Below are positions 49,311 to 62,726 of a DNA stretch of 64,000 bases, piece after piece. The translations under genes and the position numbers were made by a program. Origin of the DNA: Armatimonadota bacterium (GTDB taxonomy: Bacteria > Armatimonadota > Zipacnadia > UBA1398 > JAKPQA01). Every line of letters begins with the position of its first letter. The first letter of the stretch is position 1. The stretch lies in contig JAKPQA010000074.1 in assembly GCA_029547025.1 (NCBI GenBank), positions 1 through 64,000 on the forward strand, written 5' to 3'. The notes beneath the pieces are model-generated. The model searched no databases, had not been told where the DNA came from, and worked only from the letters and a program-made list of their open reading frames with translations.

Positions 49311-51557
49311 CTATCTCCGCCAGCCGGCCCGCGAGGCCCGAGGGGCCCGGTCCGCCGCCTCTGCTTGCGCCACGATCTCGAACGGCAACGCAGGCAACAC
49401 TCCGGCCGCAACCCGTCGTGTTGTTGCCGGCTTGCCGCCCTGGGCCTTGGTCTCGAGTTCCGCGTACAGCTCGACGATCAGATTGTCGACGTACCCGGCC
49501 GGCGGGGAGTCACTACCGGCGCTCAGTGTCAGCAGCAGGCCGCCGGGCACTGGCTCGACACCGTCCAGCGCGATCCCCGCCGGCGGCTCGCTCAGCGAGA
49601 GCCGAACCATCGACAGAAGCGGCCCGGCCGGCGAGTTCACCCGCACCTGCACACTCCCGCCCGCCGGGACCCGCACCGGCCCCGCGTCAGCCCAGGACAC
49701 CGTCGGCACCCGCCCCCCCAACCCCGTCGTCGTCGCGAGCAGCTCCATCGAGGGCACCAGGTGCCGGTACGCGAAGGCCTGCATCATGTCTTCAGCCGGA
49801 ACGGCTTCGTGAATCACCATCTGCCCAGCGATCGCCGCGGTCCCCTGCAGCCGCAGTGACACAGGCCTCCCGAACGGCTGCTTCGGCGCCGAGACCGTGA
49901 TGCGGATCGAGTCGAGCCCAGCCGGGACGCGCCCTCCCGCCAGCGCGTAGCCGGCTGGGGCATCAGCGAGCGAGACCTCGATCTCACCGTCGAAGCCGTC
50001 CTTGCGGATGGCGTGTACCGTCGCCGCGGCCGACCGCCCCGCCGGAATGCTCAGGCTCGAGGGCGTCACCCGCAGTGCGAAGTCGGGTCGGGGCCCGCTC
50101 AGACGAAGCCGGTAGCCATAGCGTTCGCCCCCATGCTGCTGAACATCCGACACGCGGACGAAGTACGGGCCATCTGCCGGTAGCTCCGCCCTCACATACG
50201 AGTCGGCGTGGTGCGTGATAAGCCCGGCCCCGGGGTCGGGGCTATCGTCGTTCCACGCGATGATCTTGCCGGCGCCGTCCATGAGCCGCACCAGCGAGTC
50301 CAGTTCGGAGCCGAGCCGACGAGCACTCACCTCGGCGACGACTGTCTCCCCCGCCCGGCCATCGAAGCGGTACACATCCACATCGCCCGCCCGCTCAATC
50401 CGGCCGCTCACACACACAGGCAGACGGACACTCTGCGCACGCTCCAGGCCATCGTTCGGCTCGGCCTCAACGCACTCAGGCAGCTCACCGCCCCAAGGGG
50501 CCATCGGGGTCAAGCCTAGCGGCTCGCCACCAGGCGCCGCCTCGGCCACAACCAGCCGGTACACGAAGTCCTCTCGCCCGCGGTAGAGCGCGTCGCGCAC
50601 CTCGATCTCATACTCGCCATCGCTAGGCACCTCGTACAGCAGCCGAGGGTCCGGATCGAAGCCGTTGTCGTCGCAGAAGGCCACCTCGGTCCCTTTGGGG
50701 TCGCGCAGGGCCAGCACCGCCTGGAACCACCCGGGTACCGCGTCGGCCAGATAGGGCATGAGCCGGCGCGCGTGGACTTCGATCTTCAGCCGCTCCCCTT
50801 GCCGCGCCGCGAAGCGGACTCGGTCGACATCGCCGGCCAGGACCTGTCCGTTCAGGACGAAGGCGGACTCCGCCGTCTGTTGCCGACTCCCCGGTCGGTC
50901 GTTGGGCTCGCTCTCGAGCAGTTCCGGCGCCGCACCAACCTCAAAGCGCAACGGGTTCGACAGCCCCATGGGACCCGCCAGTCGGATCTCGCGGCCGCCG
51001 GGCACCGCGTTCGCGTCGATGCGGACCTCGAGCAGCACCGTCTCGGCGATAGCCCGCTGGGGCGGTTGGAGGTTTCGTGGGCTGAAGAACCACCGGGCCA
51101 GCTCCACCAACTCCGGCAACGTCTTGCTGTCCAGATCGCGAAGCAACGGGTGATCGGGCAGGTTCAGCGGCTTTGCATCGGGCGCGCGCGGCGGGACCCG
51201 GCGCCGCAGGACGCCGAGCGTGTGTGCCGGACCCCGCTGGTCTTCCGGTATCTCGGCAACGCGCTTCTCCGCCGCCTCGGAAAAGTGGCGAGCCACTTCC
51301 TCGAGCAGGTCCTTGTTGAGAGGGGTTGGCGGGCCGCTCGGCCGCGCCACCGAAGCCCGTACCCCCGCACCCGACACATGAGCCGCGTTGACCCCGCGCA
51401 AGAACTGGCCCCCGACGATCACCCGCACCGTGCCGCCACGCTGCCCGCCCGCTGGGTACAAGTACCCCACGTGGGGCGATCGGATGTCCGCCTGGCCCCA
51501 GCACGCACTGGCCCACAGGAGAAGCGCGGACAACGTGGCCCTACATGAGCTCCGCAA
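49311..51557 (-). CDS. Secreted protein with bacterial pre-peptidase C-terminal (PPC)-like domains
   Basis: Signal MRSSCRATLSALLLWASACWGQA; repeated EAEPNDGLERAQSVRLPVCVSGRIERAGDVDVYRFDGRAGETVVAEV and ESEPNDRPGSRQQTAE...GDVDRVRFAARQGERLKIEV. TTG start overlaps the DUF1501 stop. Confidence 0.82.
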   Translation of the reverse strand: MRSSCRATLSALLLWASACWGQADIRSPHVGYLYPAGGQRGGTVRVIVGGQFLRGVNAAHVSGAGVRASVARPSGPPTPLNKDLLEEVARHFSEAAEKRVAEIPEDQRGPAHTLGVLRRRVPPRAPDAKPLNLPDHPLLRDLDSKTLPELVELARWFFSPRNLQPPQRAIAETVLLEVRIDANAVPGGREIRLAGPMGLSNPLRFEVGAAPELLESEPNDRPGSRQQTAESAFVLNGQVLAGDVDRVRFAARQGERLKIEVHARRLMPYLADAVPGWFQAVLALRDPKGTEVAFCDDNGFDPDPRLLYEVPSDGEYEIEVRDALYRGREDFVYRLVVAEAAPGGEPLGLTPMAPWGGELPECVEAEPNDGLERAQSVRLPVCVSGRIERAGDVDVYRFDGRAGETVVAEVSARRLGSELDSLVRLMDGAGKIIAWNDDSPDPGAGLITHHADSYVRAELPADGPYFVRVSDVQQHGGERYGYRLRLSGPRPDFALRVTPSSLSIPAGRSAAATVHAIRKDGFDGEIEVSLADAPAGYALAGGRVPAGLDSIRITVSAPKQPFGRPVSLRLQGTAAIAGQMVIHEAVPAEDMMQAFAYRHLVPSMELLATTTGLGGRVPTVSWADAGPVRVPAGGSVQVRVNSPAGPLLSMVRLSLSEPPAGIALDGVEPVPGGLLLTLSAGSDSPPAGYVDNLIVELYAELETKAQGGKPATTRRVAAGVLPALPFEIVAQAEAADRAPRASRAGWRR

Positions 51558-52869
51558 GCAGCCCACCCCCCGCGACCCCGGCCGGCGCGGGAAGCAGCGA
51601 CCCGCCTTCGGCACCGCGCATCGGCATCGGGCCGTCCGGGTCGATCCCCAGCAACGTGTAGATGCTCCGGATGACCTCGCTCGGATGCACCGGCCGCTCC
51701 AGAACCTCGGATCCCGTGGCATCCGACTCCCCGACCACCAGCCCGCCCCGGAACCCGCCGCCGGCGACCACCGTCGAGAAGCAGTTGCCGTAATGGCCCC
51801 GCCCGCCGTTCCACGGCTCCTCCCACTGCACGCGCGGGGTCCGCCCAAACTCCCCGCCCCACCATACGATGGTGCTGTCGAGTAGCCCCCGCTCCGACAA
51901 GTCGCCGATCAGCGCGGCCATGCCCTGATCCATCTGGGGCAGCTTCTGACGCATGGTCTCGAAGTGCCGCTTGTGTGTGTCCCACCCCTGGTAGTTGATG
52001 GTCACGTAAGGCACCCCGTGCTCCACCAGCCGCCGCGCCACCAGACACGACTGCCCGAATGTGTTCCGTCCATACCGATCCCGCATCTCGGGCGACTCCT
52101 CGCCCAGGTCGAACACCTTCCCCCCCTGCCCGAGGATCAGGTCGTACGCCTTCGCCTCACAGCCGTCGAGCTGCTCGAACAGCTTCTCGCCCGGCATCGC
52201 GGCCCCCAGTGAGTCCAGCGAGTGCAGCAAGTCGCGCCGCGCCTGCTGTCGCTCGGCCGTCACGCCCTCGGACACGATCCCCTCGACGGCGAACACCTTC
52301 TGGTTGGGGTCGCCACCGGTCGCGAACGGCTTGTACCGGGCGCCGAGGAACCCGGCCTCCGAAAACCGTCCCTGCGACTGGGTGAGCACGATGTAGGGCG
52401 GAATCAAGCCCTCATACCCGTGGTCGTAGCCCCTGAACAACGACACGACCGCACCGGCCGACGGATACACGCTCCCGCCGGGCTCGCGTCCCGTCTGGAC
52501 GATGTACGACGCCGTCTCGTGTGCGTTGACCCTGTGAGTCATGCTGCGGATGATCGAATACTGGTCCGCCAGCCTGGCCAACTGAGGCAAGAGCTCACCG
52601 ACGAAGACCCCGGGCACGTTCGTCTCTATCGGATGGTCTAGCGGCCCGCAGTAGTCCCGCCCGGCTTCCGGCTTCGGGTCGAAGGTGTCCAGGTGCGATG
52701 GCCCCCCCCACATCCAGATCTGGATCACGGACTTGGCCCTGGGAGCCGGCGGCGTCGGCTGCGAACGCGCCCGGCCGGGACCCAACAAGGCCACGCCCGC
52801 CGCACCCACCAATCCCCGCCTCAGCAGCTCCCTGCGCGTGAGACCCGCGCCACATCGTTGCCCGTCCAT
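51541..52869 (-). CDS. DUF1501 domain protein with Tat-type signal
   Basis: GLTRRELLRRGLVGAAGVALLG Tat-like motif; KSVIQIWMWGGPSHLDTFDPKPEA...SIIRSMTH...WWGGEFGRTPR. Confidence 0.93.
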   Translation of the reverse strand: MDGQRCGAGLTRRELLRRGLVGAAGVALLGPGRARSQPTPPAPRAKSVIQIWMWGGPSHLDTFDPKPEAGRDYCGPLDHPIETNVPGVFVGELLPQLARLADQYSIIRSMTHRVNAHETASYIVQTGREPGGSVYPSAGAVVSLFRGYDHGYEGLIPPYIVLTQSQGRFSEAGFLGARYKPFATGGDPNQKVFAVEGIVSEGVTAERQQARRDLLHSLDSLGAAMPGEKLFEQLDGCEAKAYDLILGQGGKVFDLGEESPEMRDRYGRNTFGQSCLVARRLVEHGVPYVTINYQGWDTHKRHFETMRQKLPQMDQGMAALIGDLSERGLLDSTIVWWGGEFGRTPRVQWEEPWNGGRGHYGNCFSTVVAGGGFRGGLVVGESDATGSEVLERPVHPSEVIRSIYTLLGIDPDGPMPMRGAEGGSLLPAPAGVAGGGLLAELM

Positions 52870-52947
52870 CGGCCCCTCCTCCAACTGCCGTCGGCGCGAG
52901 ACTGGCCGGCCATACCGAGGACTCGCACGGCGGAGTCCTCCGCCACC

Positions 52948-53200
52948 CATTGGCGGTAACTGAGGGCTCCAGTGGCCCATCAGCCTGGTTGCGGAGGGGC
53001 GCCATGGGGGGAACCACGCGTCTCCCAGCGTGGTGGGCCCCCAACGCGCCCGATCGGCACGCGCCAACGTCGGGCCGGTCAGGGGCCCCGCGCCCTCTGG
53101 GCACACCCCTGCGCGGCCCCTCCGAAAGACCAGGCGGGCGTTCCCCGCGACCTTCGCGAGACCCAGCCGCCCGGCCCAGGGCCCTATGTTACCGCCAATG
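52948..53200. repeat. Intergenic element bounded by perfect 13-bp inverted repeats CATTGGCGGTAAC ... GTTACCGCCAATG
   Basis: Exact 13-mers at 52948-52960 (+) and 53188-53200 (-), flanking a hairpin-rich non-coding stretch; related copy at 60354-60464. Confidence 0.75.
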
Positions 53201-53278
53201 CCTCCGCCACCTCACCGGTGGTCGGACCCTATCCGGCCCGCGCCGGCCGCAAGGCCCACGTGGGCAGATCGCCAGCCG

Positions 53279-54844
53279 CTAATGCCGGCACAGGAACTCC
53301 TTCGTGTTGATCAGTGCCCACGCCAGATCCTCGACAGCCTGCTTGGGCGTCCGACCGCCCGCCTCCAAGTAGGCGGATGCGGTCGCGACTTCGGTCGGCG
53401 TCGGCGGGCGCGACAGGACCATGTAGTAGACCGCAGTCACCTGATCCCGCCGGTTGCCCCTCCTGAGGGCGATGGCTGCTCTGAGCCGCGGGCTCGTCTC
53501 GAGCATCCGCCGGATGTCCGTCGAGTTCAGGGTGTAGAGGCGCTGCGCATCGGTCGGCTGGCCGCTCCGTTCCGAGTCCGTCCCCGTGTCCCGCGCCGGG
53601 CGGCCGAACATCTCGAGGAACGAACTCGAAATACTGCCATCCGCCAACTCGATGGCCCGCTCGTCGTCAGGCACGTACGTGAACGGCTCGGGAATCGCGC
53701 TAATGTAGTGCTCCGGCTCCGCGCCCAGCCACCGCAACGCATCGTTGAGCACTTCGGCCTCCAACTGCCGCACCGGGTAGTAGGCGAACAGTGCCGCCGC
53801 CTCCGGGCCGTCGCTCTGCGGGATCGACGACTGCTGGTAGGTCCGCGATGTCAGAATCAGTCGGTACAGGGCCTTCAGGTCGTAGTGGCTCGCCACAAAT
53901 GCCTGCTCAAGGTAGGCCAGCAGCTCGGGGTTCGATGGCGGGTTGTCAGGCCGGATGTCATCCGGCTCCTCGACAATCCCACGGCCGAGCAACCAGGCCC
54001 ACACGCGGTTGACGATAGCTCGCGCGAACCATGGATTGCCATCCGCCAGCAGCCAGTCGGCGAAGACCTGTCGCGGGTCTTGGTCGGCCGCAATATGCAC
54101 CGCTGTGCCATCCGGGAGAGTGGCGTCGAACGGCCCCAGCGGCGTCGGGTCGAGGCACACGATCTCCTCTTTCCATTCGTCGGTCTTCTTGTACGCCACC
54201 CGAAAGAAGAAGCGCGCCAGGTTCTCCCGCTCGGTCTGCGGCCAACTCGCAAGCCGCGTCCCCATGAACGTCAGCGCCACGGCTCCGGCGATGTCCTCGG
54301 GCTTCCGGCCCTGCACAGCACGGTAGAAGTTCGCCGGCGGTACCCGGAAAGCGCTGCCACTCGAGGTCAGCAGCTCGCGCGCGAACAGGTCGTAGGGCTT
54401 GTTGGTGGCCATGGCCTCGCGGACCCAGCGCTGGTAACACTGAACCGCGTTGGGCCACAGGTTGATGGGAAACTCCGCCTTGACCCGGAGCACATCACAC
54501 CACTTCATCGCCCAGTAGTCGGCGAACTCCGGGCGCTCCAGCAGCGAGTCGATCAGTCTCGCGCGCTTCTCCGGCCGCCGGTCTTGCAGGAAGGCGCGCA
54601 CAACCAGGGGCTCCGGCAGCGTGCCGATGATATCCAGGTGTGCCCGGCGCACGAACACCTCGTCGGAGCAGAGGTAGGCCGACTCGATGCCCGCAACCTG
54701 CAGCGAGGCACCGACGAGCTCATCAATGCGCGTCGCGGGCACGACCTCATCCGGCCGTTCGAAAGGCGCCACGGCCGGCGCCCGTGCGTCGACCGCGCTC
54801 GAGACGGCAATAAACGCCACCGCGCCCCACAAGGCTCCCCTCAC
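53279..54844 (-). CDS. DUF1549/DUF1553 domain protein (PSCyt2/PSD1-like)
   Basis: FVRRAHLDIIGTLPEPLVVRAFLQD...YWAMKWCDVLRVKAE (DUF1549); NPWFARAIVNRVWAWLLGRGIVEEPDDIRPDNPPSNPELLAYLEQAF (DUF1553). Confidence 0.93.
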   Translation of the reverse strand: MRGALWGAVAFIAVSSAVDARAPAVAPFERPDEVVPATRIDELVGASLQVAGIESAYLCSDEVFVRRAHLDIIGTLPEPLVVRAFLQDRRPEKRARLIDSLLERPEFADYWAMKWCDVLRVKAEFPINLWPNAVQCYQRWVREAMATNKPYDLFARELLTSSGSAFRVPPANFYRAVQGRKPEDIAGAVALTFMGTRLASWPQTERENLARFFFRVAYKKTDEWKEEIVCLDPTPLGPFDATLPDGTAVHIAADQDPRQVFADWLLADGNPWFARAIVNRVWAWLLGRGIVEEPDDIRPDNPPSNPELLAYLEQAFVASHYDLKALYRLILTSRTYQQSSIPQSDGPEAAALFAYYPVRQLEAEVLNDALRWLGAEPEHYISAIPEPFTYVPDDERAIELADGSISSSFLEMFGRPARDTGTDSERSGQPTDAQRLYTLNSTDIRRMLETSPRLRAAIALRRGNRRDQVTAVYYMVLSRPPTPTEVATASAYLEAGGRTPKQAVEDLAWALINTKEFLCRH

Positions 54845-56857: not shown

Positions 56858-56983
56858 CCGGCCGCTGCCATCCCGAGCGCGTCGCCTGTACGCCAAGGCC
56901 GGCGAATGGCACACGGCGAAAGGATCCGGCGACGTCTCCTGGCGCGGGTTGCGAGCCGCCGCGCCCCCATATCGGAGGTCCCC

Positions 56984-59900
56984 ATGGAGGTCGCTCTCGC
57001 TGGTCTGCTCGCCGCCGCTCTGGCGTGGGGCGTCGCGCCGCCCAGTGAAGTGGCCTGCGGGTCGATGGCGCTGGACTTCGACGCCGTCACGGGTCAGTGG
57101 TGCGGCTGGTCGGAGAACGGCCGGGAGCTCCTGTCTCCCTCAACTCGACCTGATGTTACCGTGGCCGGCCCGGAACTCGAATGGCCGGCACCCGGCTTGT
57201 GGCAGGCCGATGAGCCCGTCGCCATCGTGGAGCAGGGCGTATACCGCGTCTCCGTCCGCCGGCACGCCGGAGACTGGACGCTGACCACCCAGTTCGAGGC
57301 ATACCCGGACGAGAGGCGCCTGGTCCGAAGCGTCACACTCCGCTGGAATGGGGCGGCCACGCTTCGCACCCACCAGGTAACCTTGCGCGTGCCTGGCCTC
57401 AGCCTGGGTGACTCGCAATCCGCCGTCGGCTGCCTACCCGGCGCCTACCCACCCCACGAGTTCCCTCTGGCAATCGACGGGCCGTCGCGGGCCGAACTCG
57501 AACCGGGGTGGACGTGGTCTGAGACCGGCTGCGCCTACGTGCGCTCGGACGCCGCCGGCCTTTCGGTGCTCGGCGCTTACCGGCTCGAGGACGACCGCGC
57601 GCGCGTGAGCCTCGAGACGGGCCAGGGCGGGCCGGCGCTCGTGCACCATTTCGAGGTGGTGGCCCGGCTCGCGCCGGGCAGCGAGATCACGGTCGGCTCC
57701 CAGTGTCTGCAGCTGGCGGAGCCAGACCTGCCAGCGATCCGCGAGGCGGGGGCAAGCCTGTCGGAACGGGTCAACTTCGGACCGCCGCCTGACCGGCCCC
57801 AATGGCTCGACGGAGCCGTGCTCTACGAGGTCCACCCCTGGGGCCGACTCGAGGCCTGGGGCGCCGGCGACCGCGGCGACCGGTTCCCGAGTCTCGAAAC
57901 CCAGTTGCCTTACCTGAAGAGCCTGGGCGTCAGCGCCCTCTGGCTCCTGCCCGTGACCGAGAAGCCCCCGTGGGTCTACTACCTGCCGAAGCTGCGGGAG
58001 ATCGACCCCGACGTGGGCACGCTCGCCGAGCTCGCCTCCATGATCCGCGCCGGCCACGGCCTCGGCATACGCACGCTCATGGACATCGTCACCTACGGCG
58101 TCGCGCCCGATAGCCCCGACGTGGCCCATCTGCCCGACACCGTGTGGTGTCTCGATGAGAATGGCGAGCGCCAGAAGGCCTGGGGTGGTACCGTCATGGC
58201 CGCGGACTGCTCCAACTCGGACTGGAATGCCCACATCGTCGACCTGGGCTCCTACTGGGTGCGCGAGACGGGCTGCGATGGCTACCGGCTCGACTGTGGT
58301 GGCGCCGGCCAGGTGCCCAACTACAGCCCGAAAGCCCACCCCAAAGCCAACCGGGCCATGCTCGCCGGCGGGGTCCGGCAGAACGCCCTACTGCGGGCCG
58401 CGATCCGCGCCATCAACCCCGATGCGGTCCTCTTGCCCGAGGCGGGCGCTACCGGGAACTTCCGCTCGGCCGACATGCTGTTCGACTACCCCTTCTATAT
58501 GGCGTGTCGCGAGCTGACACGGGAGCCCGACACCGGCCTCGCCGTCACCCGGCTTCGCGACTGGCTCGCCGCGCAGCAGATCACCCACTCGCTGCGCCAG
58601 CAACTCTCGATGGTGCGTTTTCTGGAGCTGCACGACACCGTCTCGGCGCAGGAGTTCTTTGGTCTCGGCCCATCGCAGGCCCTGACCGCGCTGAGCACCT
58701 TCATCCCCGGGGTGCTCCTCCTCCAGCAGGAGCAGGAGATCGGCATGGCCGAGGAGCTTCGCCAGTGGCTGCAGCTCCGGCACGAACTCCCCGAGCTCGG
58801 CAGGGGCGAGGCCGACTACCGGGGCGTCACCGTCGACGACCCGCGCGTGCTCGCCTTCACGCGGCGGTCGGTCGACGGGGCCTCCATCGTCCTGGTCAAC
58901 TTCGCCCCGGTGGCGCTGTCGTGCCACGTCCGCTGGCAGGAGGACCTCACCGAGGTGTTCCCCGAGGCCACCGATGCACTCACCGGCGCGGCCGTCGCGG
59001 ATGGGCAACCGATCACCGTGCCCGCGTACCGCCCGATCGTCATCGCGCTCCGGCGGGACGGAGCCGGGCCGCGACCTCGCATCCCCTCGCGCGAAGCGAC
59101 GCCCGGCCCCCTCTGGGCCGCCGCGCCCGAAGTCGCTCCCCTCGGCGATGGCCTCGAGCGTCATACCGTCCGCGTGACCGGCGCCACCGAATGGTTCGTC
59201 CTCACCACCGAGGGGTTCGCCATGGACGAGTTCGTCGATCGCCATCGGGGCACGAAGCCGGGCGAGACGCACGTCGATGCCGTGCCGCCTTTGGCCCGCG
59301 TGTGGCGGCCACTCGAGAACCGCCTCTGGGACGGCCCCGGCCCCACCGGGTTTGGCCTGGCCGGAGCCGCCGGAGACGCCGTGTGGCTCCCCATCACCGA
59401 TCGCGAGGCACTCCGCGGCGCCCGGATCGAGGCTGACTCGCCGGCCGGCGGCGACGTCCGCCTGGTGATCGACGCCCCCGCAGGGGCCCAACCCTTCGAG
59501 ATCGCCGAGACGACCCGCGACGAGCTGCTGAGCATGGCGCGAGTCGCACGACCCCCCGCATCGGCCGCGCGCGTCGAGGTCGACCCGCTCTTCGTCCGCG
59601 TCTCGAACGGCCACTACACCGCCAGCATGGCGCGCCGGCACGGCGGCGTCCTCGCGGGGCTCTGCGCACCCGGCGGCAAGCCCCTTCTGGCCGGCATGGC
59701 CGACGTCTACACGGACTGGGGGCTATTCGAGAGAGGCATCCGCATCGCCAGCGAGTGGGAGACGAGCCCGCGTATGTCCATCCGCGAGGCGCACGGCGCG
59801 GCCGAGGTGACCTTCGAGGGCGCCCTCCGCCGGCCCTCTTGGAACGGCGTGGCGGCGGGACCCGTGGCCGATCCCGTCGTGCGCTACACGCTGACCTACC

Positions 59901-60304
59901 GCGCAGATGACTCGGACACCCTCCATGTCTCGCTGACCGTCCGCCCCACCACAGACCGGCCGGATACGAACGCCTTCTTCGCGCTGCGGATTCCCTTCGC
60001 AGCCACGGCTTGGTCGGTGACCGGGGCGACGCAGGAGCTCTCCGGTGACGTCGGCACGCACCCCGGCCAGCGCATCTACCAGGCCCGCGAGGTCACCACC
60101 GGCCGCGATGGTGTTCGCATCCGCCTGAGCGGCGACGCCGGCACGGTCACGCTCTCCGAGGACGGAATCGCCCAGAACCCCTTCCTACTCGACGGCGGCC
60201 CGAGCACCATCCACCTCTTCTTCGCCCTGCTCGACGGCCAGGCCGTCACCTTGCCCGCCAATACGGACCGGACGGCAACGGCTCGCATCGAAGTGGGCCA
60301 GTAG
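56984..60304 (+). CDS. Secreted GH13-like (alpha-amylase superfamily) protein with large non-catalytic extensions
   Basis: SD GGAGG then ATG 56984; GDRFPSLETQLPYLKSLGVSALWLLPVTE; GYRLDCGG (nucleophile D), LLPEAG (acid/base E), FLELHDT (transition-state D). Confidence 0.8.
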   Translation: MEVALAGLLAAALAWGVAPPSEVACGSMALDFDAVTGQWCGWSENGRELLSPSTRPDVTVAGPELEWPAPGLWQADEPVAIVEQGVYRVSVRRHAGDWTLTTQFEAYPDERRLVRSVTLRWNGAATLRTHQVTLRVPGLSLGDSQSAVGCLPGAYPPHEFPLAIDGPSRAELEPGWTWSETGCAYVRSDAAGLSVLGAYRLEDDRARVSLETGQGGPALVHHFEVVARLAPGSEITVGSQCLQLAEPDLPAIREAGASLSERVNFGPPPDRPQWLDGAVLYEVHPWGRLEAWGAGDRGDRFPSLETQLPYLKSLGVSALWLLPVTEKPPWVYYLPKLREIDPDVGTLAELASMIRAGHGLGIRTLMDIVTYGVAPDSPDVAHLPDTVWCLDENGERQKAWGGTVMAADCSNSDWNAHIVDLGSYWVRETGCDGYRLDCGGAGQVPNYSPKAHPKANRAMLAGGVRQNALLRAAIRAINPDAVLLPEAGATGNFRSADMLFDYPFYMACRELTREPDTGLAVTRLRDWLAAQQITHSLRQQLSMVRFLELHDTVSAQEFFGLGPSQALTALSTFIPGVLLLQQEQEIGMAEELRQWLQLRHELPELGRGEADYRGVTVDDPRVLAFTRRSVDGASIVLVNFAPVALSCHVRWQEDLTEVFPEATDALTGAAVADGQPITVPAYRPIVIALRRDGAGPRPRIPSREATPGPLWAAAPEVAPLGDGLERHTVRVTGATEWFVLTTEGFAMDEFVDRHRGTKPGETHVDAVPPLARVWRPLENRLWDGPGPTGFGLAGAAGDAVWLPITDREALRGARIEADSPAGGDVRLVIDAPAGAQPFEIAETTRDELLSMARVARPPASAARVEVDPLFVRVSNGHYTASMARRHGGVLAGLCAPGGKPLLAGMADVYTDWGLFERGIRIASEWETSPRMSIREAHGAAEVTFEGALRRPSWNGVAAGPVADPVVRYTLTYRADDSDTLHVSLTVRPTTDRPDTNAFFALRIPFAATAWSVTGATQELSGDVGTHPGQRIYQAREVTTGRDGVRIRLSGDAGTVTLSEDGIAQNPFLLDGGPSTIHLFFALLDGQAVTLPANTDRTATARIEVGQ

Positions 60305-60353
60305 GGCGTGGACGCAAGCAACACAGATCCGCAAGAGAGGAGGGGACAGGGCG

Positions 60354-60464
60354 CCATTGGCGGTAACTTGGGCCCAGGTGGTGCGCCGAAGGCCCGTACG
60401 CCGCACCGCCCCTCCACGACCGCGTCCACGGGCCGATGGAGCCCGATGTGACCGTCATGCCTCC
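60354..60464. repeat. Second copy (shorter, one arm degenerate) of the CATTGGCGGTAAC intergenic element
   Basis: CATTGGCGGTAACTTGGGCCCAGGTGG at 60354; GAGCCCGATGTGACCGTCATGCCTCC ending at 60464 matches GGGCCCTATGTTACCGCCAATGCCTCC at the end of the first copy. Confidence 0.7.
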
Positions 60465-60554
60465 CGGCCCCCCGGGCACTGACGGCTAGCGGCGCGCAGG
60501 GGGGATCGCGAAGCGCGTCTGGCTGATCGGGCGCGCGGCAATGGAGTCCACGGA

Positions 60555-62726
60555 ATGGATGACCGCCTTGTGACGCTGTGTGGCCTGCCCATGGCGATGC
60601 TCGCGGCCGGCGCGGCCGGTCTGGGGACGCCCTGGTATCAGCAGGCGCTCGTCGGGATGGAGGTCGGCCCCACCGGCGCCCAGTTCGGCGCCGAGGGCGG
60701 CGACCCGCTCTATGCGGCGCGGTTCAACGGCAGCGAGATCGTCCGGCGATGCCGCGAGGCGGGAAGCGAGTACGTGGTAGTCTGGGCCCGCGATGGAGTC
60801 TATGCATACTACGACTCGGCCGTCCAGCCCAAAGCGCCTGGCCTCAGAGAGCGCGACGTTCTGCGTGAGGCGGTGCGGGAAGGGCGCCGCCTCGGTATGC
60901 CCATCATCGCTTACTGCGTGCTCCAGTACCCCACGACGGCTCTTGCGGAGCACCCGGAGTGGGCCATGCGCGACGCCGATGGCAAACCCATCCCAGACCG
61001 GGTGTGCTTCAACAGCCCCTACCGGGAGCACGTCAAAGACCTGCTCAAAGAGATGCTCGCCTATGGGATCGACGGGTTCCACCTCGACATGGTCGACCAG
61101 GGCTTCGGCCCGCCCCACGGATGCTGGTGCGACCACTGCGCCCGGCTCTACGAGGCCCGCTATGGTGCGGCCATGCCCACCGGCGTCACGTGGGACGAGA
61201 GCTGGAACCGGATGCTCGAACTCCGGTATGAGACGAGCGCCGGCTTCGAGCGCGAGCTCACGCAGTTCATCCGCTCCGAGGCCCCGGGCGTCACCGTCGA
61301 CTACAACTACCACGGCAACCCTCCCTTCTCATGGGAGGTGGGCCAGAGACCGGTCCAGCACGCCGTGAACGGCGACTTCGTGACGGGCGAGACGGGCATC
61401 TGGGGCTTCAGCGCCCTCACCACGGGCCTCAATGTCGAGATCTACCGGGCGGCCACCCCCGGCAGACCCGTACAGGTGGCGATGCAGCGCGGCGTGAGGA
61501 TGTACCACGACCAGACGACCCGACCGCTTGCCGACATGCAGTGGGAGTTGTACACGCTCCTGGCCCACGGCGCCTTCGTGACCATGGTCGACAAGACGGC
61601 GTACGATGGATGGCTCGACCCGGTCGCGTACGAGCGGATCGGCGAGCTGTTCGCTGAGGCGCGCCGCCGCCGCGACGAGTTTGGTCATGCGCCCGTCGCT
61701 GACGTAGCACTCTGGTTCAGCGACAGGAGCCGCGACTGGTACGGGCGCCAGGATCCGAGCCGGTACTTCGCCGGCTTCCTCGGCGCGCACAAGGCCATGA
61801 CCTACGAGCACCTGCCATGGTCCGTCGTCCTCGAGGAGAACGCGTCCCTCGCGACCCTGAAGCAGACCCCGGTGGTGCTGCTACCCAACGCGGCCATCGT
61901 CGGCGAGGCCACCGTCCGCCTTCTCAGCGACTACGTGACTGGCGGCGGCAACCTCATCGTCACGGGCATCTCCGGCTGCTTCGACCACATGGGACAACCG
62001 CGCCCCCACTCGGCCCTCGAGAACCTCATCGGCGGGCGCTTGGTGCGGCCCCTCGAGTCCCGAGACAACCACGTCCGGTTTGCCCGGGGACAGGGTCCGG
62101 AGGCACTCACGGCGGGCCTGCGCCCTGATTGGCCATTCCTCGTCGAAGGCCCCGCAGTGGTGTACGAGGCGACCGAGGCGACCGCCATCGGCGAGTTGCT
62201 CGCACCGCACCGCACCGTCCGCCAGATCCAGGGTGTGGAGGACACGGCTTGGCCCATGAGCGCCGGCGAAACAGTGGGACCGGCAGCGCTCCTGAACCAG
62301 CTGGGCAGCGGCCAGGTCCTCACCCTGGCATGCTCGCCCGACGCAGCCACATCCGGCGAGCACCCGATCGTCGAGGCACGACGGCTCCTCGCGAACGCGG
62401 TTCGCCTTCTCGCTCCGGAACCGAGAGTCAGGGTGGACGCTCCGGTGACGGTCGAGGTGGTCGTTCGCGACGACCCGGAGCGACGGATTCTGCGGGTGCA
62501 CCTGATCGGGTACTCCGCACCCCCGCAGACACTCCCCGCCCGCAACCGCCCGTACGTACTGCCAGGCCTGATGGAGGAGCCGCCAATCTACGAGGCAACC
62601 GTAACTCTGCGCGATAGGCCCCGAAGCCTGCGGGTGGTGGGGCGGGCTGACCCACCCAGGCGCGACGGGCGCCGTATCGCCCTGACGGTCAGAGACACCC
62701 ACGCCGTCCTCGTGGTCGGCTACTGA
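60555..62726 (+). CDS. GHL6-like hypothetical glycosyl hydrolase with GATase-like/trimerisation-type domain
   Basis: ARFNGSEIVRRCREAGSEYVVVWARDGVYAYYDS; GIDGFHLDMVDQGFGPPHGCWCDHCARLYEARYG; PVVLLPNAAIVGEATVRLLSDYVTGGGNLIVTG. Confidence 0.78.
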   Translation: MDDRLVTLCGLPMAMLAAGAAGLGTPWYQQALVGMEVGPTGAQFGAEGGDPLYAARFNGSEIVRRCREAGSEYVVVWARDGVYAYYDSAVQPKAPGLRERDVLREAVREGRRLGMPIIAYCVLQYPTTALAEHPEWAMRDADGKPIPDRVCFNSPYREHVKDLLKEMLAYGIDGFHLDMVDQGFGPPHGCWCDHCARLYEARYGAAMPTGVTWDESWNRMLELRYETSAGFERELTQFIRSEAPGVTVDYNYHGNPPFSWEVGQRPVQHAVNGDFVTGETGIWGFSALTTGLNVEIYRAATPGRPVQVAMQRGVRMYHDQTTRPLADMQWELYTLLAHGAFVTMVDKTAYDGWLDPVAYERIGELFAEARRRRDEFGHAPVADVALWFSDRSRDWYGRQDPSRYFAGFLGAHKAMTYEHLPWSVVLEENASLATLKQTPVVLLPNAAIVGEATVRLLSDYVTGGGNLIVTGISGCFDHMGQPRPHSALENLIGGRLVRPLESRDNHVRFARGQGPEALTAGLRPDWPFLVEGPAVVYEATEATAIGELLAPHRTVRQIQGVEDTAWPMSAGETVGPAALLNQLGSGQVLTLACSPDAATSGEHPIVEARRLLANAVRLLAPEPRVRVDAPVTVEVVVRDDPERRILRVHLIGYSAPPQTLPARNRPYVLPGLMEEPPIYEATVTLRDRPRSLRVVGRADPPRRDGRRIALTVRDTHAVLVVGY

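Follow-up and report, generated by a model that had tools for sequence, protein, structure and literature searches.

A new MITE family in an Armatimonadota genome, with an old truncated member in an intergenic gap

MIC231 offers a precedent for non-autonomous DNA that is moved by an IS4-family transposase, that of IS231, through matching ends, and it carries passenger genes. These mobile insertion cassettes are cited in PMC2266710, which gives the Y(2)R(3)E(6)K signature and lists 5'-CAT ends for two IS4 subgroups, IS231 (duplications of 10–12 bp) and ISH8 (duplications of 10 bp). Among smaller elements, the bacterial MITEs NEMIS, RUP, ERIC and Bcr1 have a size range of 70–300 bp (PMC3733652).

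The elements described here resemble NEMIS, RUP, ERIC and Bcr1 in being gene-less, mostly 70–300 bp long, bounded by terminal inverted repeats and present in many intergenic copies (PMC3733652). In contrast to them, the present elements have an 11-bp duplication, three arm types, tandem expansion of the core and young copies inside old ones; this comparison is one of descriptions, not of sequences. With the IS231 and ISH8 subgroups (PMC2266710) they share the 5'-CAT ends and duplications in the range of 10–12 bp, and relatives of the same class carry, between near-identical ends, an IS4-type transposase bearing the Y(2)R(3)E(6)K signature. Unlike IS231 and ISH8, however, the elements in the window contain no transposase, none was found in the genome, and only the terminal ~16–20 bp are common. 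They also lack passenger genes, in which they differ from MIC231. The family is a MITE-like non-autonomous DNA transposon, a new family of an ordinary kind. The best explanation, to which we give a probability of about 0.9, is a small gene-less element that spread through intergenic gaps, moved by an IS4-type enzyme, and left an old relic as its second copy in the window. The analysis adds an abundant MITE family, so far known only from this genome, to a bacterial lineage that is apparently uncultured, and links the family through its ends and duplication length to a concrete IS4-type transposase in relatives.

Two copies in the window

The window is the whole 64,000-nucleotide stretch of DNA that was analysed. 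It contains two exact occurrences of the 14-mer CATTGGCGGTAACT, at 52948 and 60355, and a one-mismatch match to the inverse of this 14-mer at 53187–53200. The arms of the family fall into three types, referred to as A, B and C, and the features at the two loci are as follows.

52937–52947, no strand: left 11-bp target-site duplication of copy 1, CCTCCGCCACC (flank comparison)
52948–53200, + strand: copy 1, a complete A-B element of 253 bp with terminal inverted repeats, the reference copy (many genome matches at 91% or more)
53201–53211, no strand: right 11-bp target-site duplication of copy 1, CCTCCGCCACC (flank comparison)
56906–60304, + strand: gene upstream of copy 2, encoding an alpha-amylase-domain protein (PF00128, 5.4e-17)
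60355–60459, no strand: copy 2, a short degenerate A-C type MITE with its core deleted (aligned with 11 other A-C elements or arms)
60355–60411, + strand: C-type arm of copy 2, terminal repeat CATTGGCGGTAAC and subterminal hairpin GGTGCGCCGAAGGCCCGTACGCCGCACC (C-arm consensus match, BLAST)
60412–60459, − strand: A-type arm of copy 2, its terminal repeat short by one deleted base (minus strand: CATGACGGTCACATCGGGCTCC; alignment, BLAST)
60555–62726, + strand: gene downstream of copy 2, encoding a GHL6 / beta-galactosidase-trimerisation-domain protein (PF14871, 8.9e-21; PF08532, 4.5e-8)

In the leftward reading direction, 78 nt separate copy 1 from the end of a stop (53279) on one side and from a Tat-signal-like start (52869, read from the sequence) that follows it on the other. 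A DUF1501 gene with this Tat-type start and a DUF1549/DUF1553 gene stand on either side of it (51541–54820). The short sequence CCCTATNCGGCC / GGTGGGACCCTAT, found at 53227–53238, is common to the flanks of several other elements; its presence beside many insertions possibly reflects another or older repeat family of the genome.

Copy 2 is 105 bp long. It begins 50 nt past the stop of the upstream gene (60304), and the downstream gene starts at 60555. The initial annotation had placed the element at 60305–60554; the repeat is indeed there, whereas that interval is the entire intergenic gap. The left arm of copy 2 is of the third type, C, carried by neither end of copy 1. It gives a 57-bp ungapped match to a C-arm consensus built from the other copies, a score that none of 2000 shuffles equalled. 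The right arm fits the left (A) arm of copy 1 slightly better than its right (B) arm (scores reached by 29 and 89 of 2000 shuffles, respectively), and in other A-C elements its counterpart in the alignment is the A end. Because its left arm is C and its right arm is A-type, copy 2 is inverted relative to copy 1, and the proposed matching of left arm to left arm and right arm to right arm does not hold. Nor does the CCTCC that had been taken as a shared part of the repeat after the right arm belong to it; in copy 1, it is part of the 11-bp duplication CCTCCGCCACC. The distances to the neighbouring stops and starts had been given correctly at both loci.

When copy 2 was used as a BLAST query against its own genome, matches were found at 13 other places. 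The element at C27:111300-111429 is 82% identical to it across 60355–60411 and 80% across 60412–60456. The core piece GGTTCCTCCCATGGCGCCG, retained in other short A-C copies, is deleted from copy 2. No target-site duplication is recognisable around it: the flanks GGACAGGGCGC and CCTCCCGGCCC match at 5 of 11 positions, which is the null level, as is expected of an old, decayed copy. Copy 2 is thus an old immobile relic, with a C-type left arm, a decayed A-type right arm, and both core and duplication lost.

Family anatomy and insertion sites

The family ends, CATTGGCGGTAAC...GTTACCGCCAATG, are widespread. In the genome scanned (6,305,774 bases, 369 contigs), the 13-mer CATTGGCGGTAAC has 109 matches with at most one mismatch, compared with 3 for a reversed-pattern control, so the view that the repeat at the two loci is not due to chance was well founded. 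A BLAST search of the same genome with copy 1 returned 52 pieces, and most A-B copies are 91–96% identical to copy 1. The arms at about 100 collected places were assigned to types (62 A, 40 B and 11 C); ten further end matches stayed unclassified and are mostly probable chance matches within genes. The elements range from 105 to 615 bp and contain no transposase gene. A-B elements form the abundant class, most commonly with a length of 253 bp; longer forms have a 45-bp insert or additional core copies (405 and 615 bp). In a second, more diverged set, to which copy 2 belongs, an A arm is paired with a C arm. The A-B copies are far more similar among themselves than are the A-C copies. Over 13 bp, the terminal inverted repeats are near-perfect, and among 21 facing positions tested, 92.7% of cells were paired, as against 33–46% when the arms were slid.

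Insertions into older copies were also seen. Immediately within an older C arm at C39 stands an A-B element whose duplication is perfect, and at C277 a C arm is directly adjoined by an A-type arm. By eye, about a dozen A or B arms have a common core-like sequence after them (CCCCTNNNCGGCCCCTCC and variants), as though insertion had preferred older elements. In one element (C6:7797-8317, L101 798-1318), four 128-bp core units stand in tandem, and the core copy number differs between elements.

Target-site duplications were sought by comparing left and right flanks at each length from 4 to 16 in 24 paired elements, with mismatched pairs as the null. Only a length of 11 stands out, with a mean flank identity of 0.72 compared with 0.36 for mismatched pairs; the other lengths are near the null. 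The 11-bp duplication is exact in 8 of the 24 elements and agrees at 9 or more of 11 positions in 15. Mismatched pairs gave no value of 9 or 10, and their 3 exact cases among 552 are flanks common to different contigs. Three A-C elements have duplications as well: C229 (11/11), C298 (9/11) and C27:111300 (CCGACACCCCC/CGGACACCCCC). The remaining nine of the 24 paired elements have no good duplication, and several of them look as if copies had been joined, either by the assembler or through recombination. Flank 11-mers of one element recur beside another on contigs C180, C306, C278 and C66, C65, C254 (L074, L024, L090, L112, L017, L013; GGGATCTGGGG; CCGGCCCACCG; CCACAGGGGGC), which suggests recombination between copies or assembly joins.

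The duplicated 11-mer has a symmetric composition. C/G makes up 95% of the two outer positions on each side and 66% of the middle five, and a wider set of flanks gave the same symmetric profile over exactly 11 bp, with C prevailing on one side and G on the other. Insertion into hairpins (terminators) was considered as a target rule and set aside: clear cases are few (C342:71777), and among 15 empty sites that were reconstructed, most palindrome scores fell in the shuffle range, with a mean folding z of only -1.1. The clear case lies on the window's own contig just past the window (C342 71777-72181, locus L098), where a 405-bp family element with a doubled core and a perfect 11-bp duplication CCCAAGAGGCG interrupts one arm of a perfect 13-bp hairpin (CCCAAGAGGCGGG...CCCGCCTCTTGGG).

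A candidate mobiliser in relatives

The genome that carries the family yielded no DDE_Tnp_1, IS4, ISL3 or IS1 transposase (PF01609, PF01610, PF03400, NF033592 and a relative's IS4 protein as query). The five rve-type (PF00665) and two IS256-type (PF00872) matches in the assembly were rejected as mobilisers, since they are without the family ends. Judging by their genes, some of these matches lie on contigs of actinobacterial appearance and may be contamination. C11 and C68 (L141, L142) combine actinobacterial-looking genes with IS256 fragments and are probably contamination of the bin, for which 4.83% is estimated. Forty other genomes of the class or order contain no element of the family, and no viral contig carrying it was found. 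A scan of genomes from 84,980 species, a set that may omit the own genome and very near ones, produced a single exact 22-bp match, on a Cyclobacteriaceae contig; no second arm was seen in the stretch read, and it is taken as chance.

IS4-type matches are present in 18 of 46 genomes of the class. Their loci were scanned for inverted ends and a duplication with the family sequence left aside. The cleanest locus, in G032, holds an IS4 element with perfect 18-bp ends CATATGCATTAACTTAAG and an 11-bp duplication CCCCCCTGGCC on both sides; it is the only complete case. G033 has a transposase 51–52% identical, with the end CATAGGCGCTAACTTAGG, and fragments of the same transposase gene occur in G043 (end CATAGGCGCTAACTTAAG) and G007 (end CATTGGCGCTAACTTAAG). 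All four genomes belong to one genus (g7) of the same class, and their IS4 elements or fragments have similar ends, the closest being CATTGGCGCTAACTTA. Over its first sixteen bases, the G007 end departs from the MITE end once. G033 and G007 are the two best cases, with identity to the MITE end at 16 and 17 of 20 positions. Only three of 195,000 positions of these IS4 loci reach 16 of 20 or more, presumably the end in G033, covered by two overlapping loci, and the one in G007, and the maximum in the window outside the family is 14 of 20. The relatives' proteins belong to the IS4 family (NF033592, PF01609), and in that of G033 the Y(2)R(3)E(6)K signature reads YRLRWQIEITFKRLK. What their elements share with the MITE is the terminal ~16–20 bp, not the interior.

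The mobiliser is very probably an IS4-family transposase; the link is a strong one, although its basis is the similarity of the ends together with a single complete element. Such an enzyme would have moved the family in this lineage at one time, and its absence from the present assembly may reflect loss or incomplete assembly. At intergenic targets with C/G edges it would make cuts offset by 11 bp and insert the element there, which would leave the 11-bp duplication. By analogy with IS231A, it presumably acts by cut and paste. The initial annotation had proposed looking for target-site duplications and for a transposase with matching terminal repeats. The former were found, at exactly 11 bp; the latter was not found in the own genome, whereas relatives of the same class have IS4-type transposases with similar ends. 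As a side observation, the IS4 fragment on contig C44 of G007 (L176 127-243) adjoins a cluster of 25–27-bp palindromes (TGCCCCTCTCCCGCAGGGAGAGGGGCA), perhaps repeats or terminators serving as targets.

Placement and alternative readings

Placement was assessed for 33 copies with enough flank by means of a codon-usage gene caller trained on the window, the starts of which are approximate. None of the 33 lies inside a called gene. Both neighbours were called for 31, of which 14 are in convergent, 12 in co-directional and 5 in divergent gaps. By a hand count of neighbouring pairs in the window's gene list, 5 are convergent, 27 co-directional and 4 divergent. Set against these pairs, convergent gaps look over-represented among the insertions, and a position between co-directional genes, which had been read as a conserved feature from the two loci, is not the rule.

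The family had been described as mobile or regulatory. Mobility is supported by the copies, inverted repeats, 11-bp duplications, nesting and IS4 ends in relatives. A structured RNA or regulatory element under selection between genes (a terminator, an mRNA stabiliser or a riboswitch-like element) would agree with the intergenic position of the copies, often close to gene ends, and with the folding of the complete copy 1, which is far better than that of its shuffles (z = -6.2). This folding, however, is explained by the inverted repeats, and copy 2 folds no better than shuffles (z = +0.57). In an alignment of 19 A-B elements, neither the 77 predicted pairs nor the 21 terminal ones included a single compensatory change, a test that is weaker for the inner stems because much of the alignment is invariant. 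The changes merely break pairs, as predicted for a DNA transposon end and not for a selected RNA helix, and the paired fraction of the terminal repeats (92.7%) is not above that of shuffles. Rfam gave no match, and neither did a scan for T-tract terminators and promoters in the gap of copy 2. The regulatory half of the description thus finds no support here, and selection as an RNA is very unlikely. Only two copies and no covariation would have spoken against a dispersed family; covariation is absent, but the copies number far more than two.

Other readings keep the DNA element and change its history. The same MITE family may have had a mobiliser from outside IS4, for example of an unassembled or unknown family, with the similarity to IS4 ends due to coincidence or convergence. 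There is no IS4 transposase in the assembly and there are five rve-type matches, although these lack the family ends; against this, the end sequence, the CAT terminus, the duplication length and the C/G-rich target all agree with the relatives' IS4 elements, and we regard such a mobiliser as unlikely. Slightly less likely again is a modular MITE in which arms and cores are recombined and expanded from copy to copy, as three arm types and tandem cores might indicate, and whose copies, concentrated between convergent genes, were co-opted as two-way transcription barriers. Palindromes of the REP/BIME type, moved by a REP-associated tyrosine transposase (RAYT), are likewise palindromic and intergenic, and tandem-core forms exist here too; but a DDE transposase is indicated by the clean 11-bp duplications and the length of the terminal inverted repeats, and units of 105–615 bp contrast with the 20–40 bp of REP (PMC3733652), which makes this origin scarcely credible.

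The MITE family also accounts for part of the fragmentation of this assembly: of 75 unpaired arms, 50 are no more than 400 bp away from the end of a contig.
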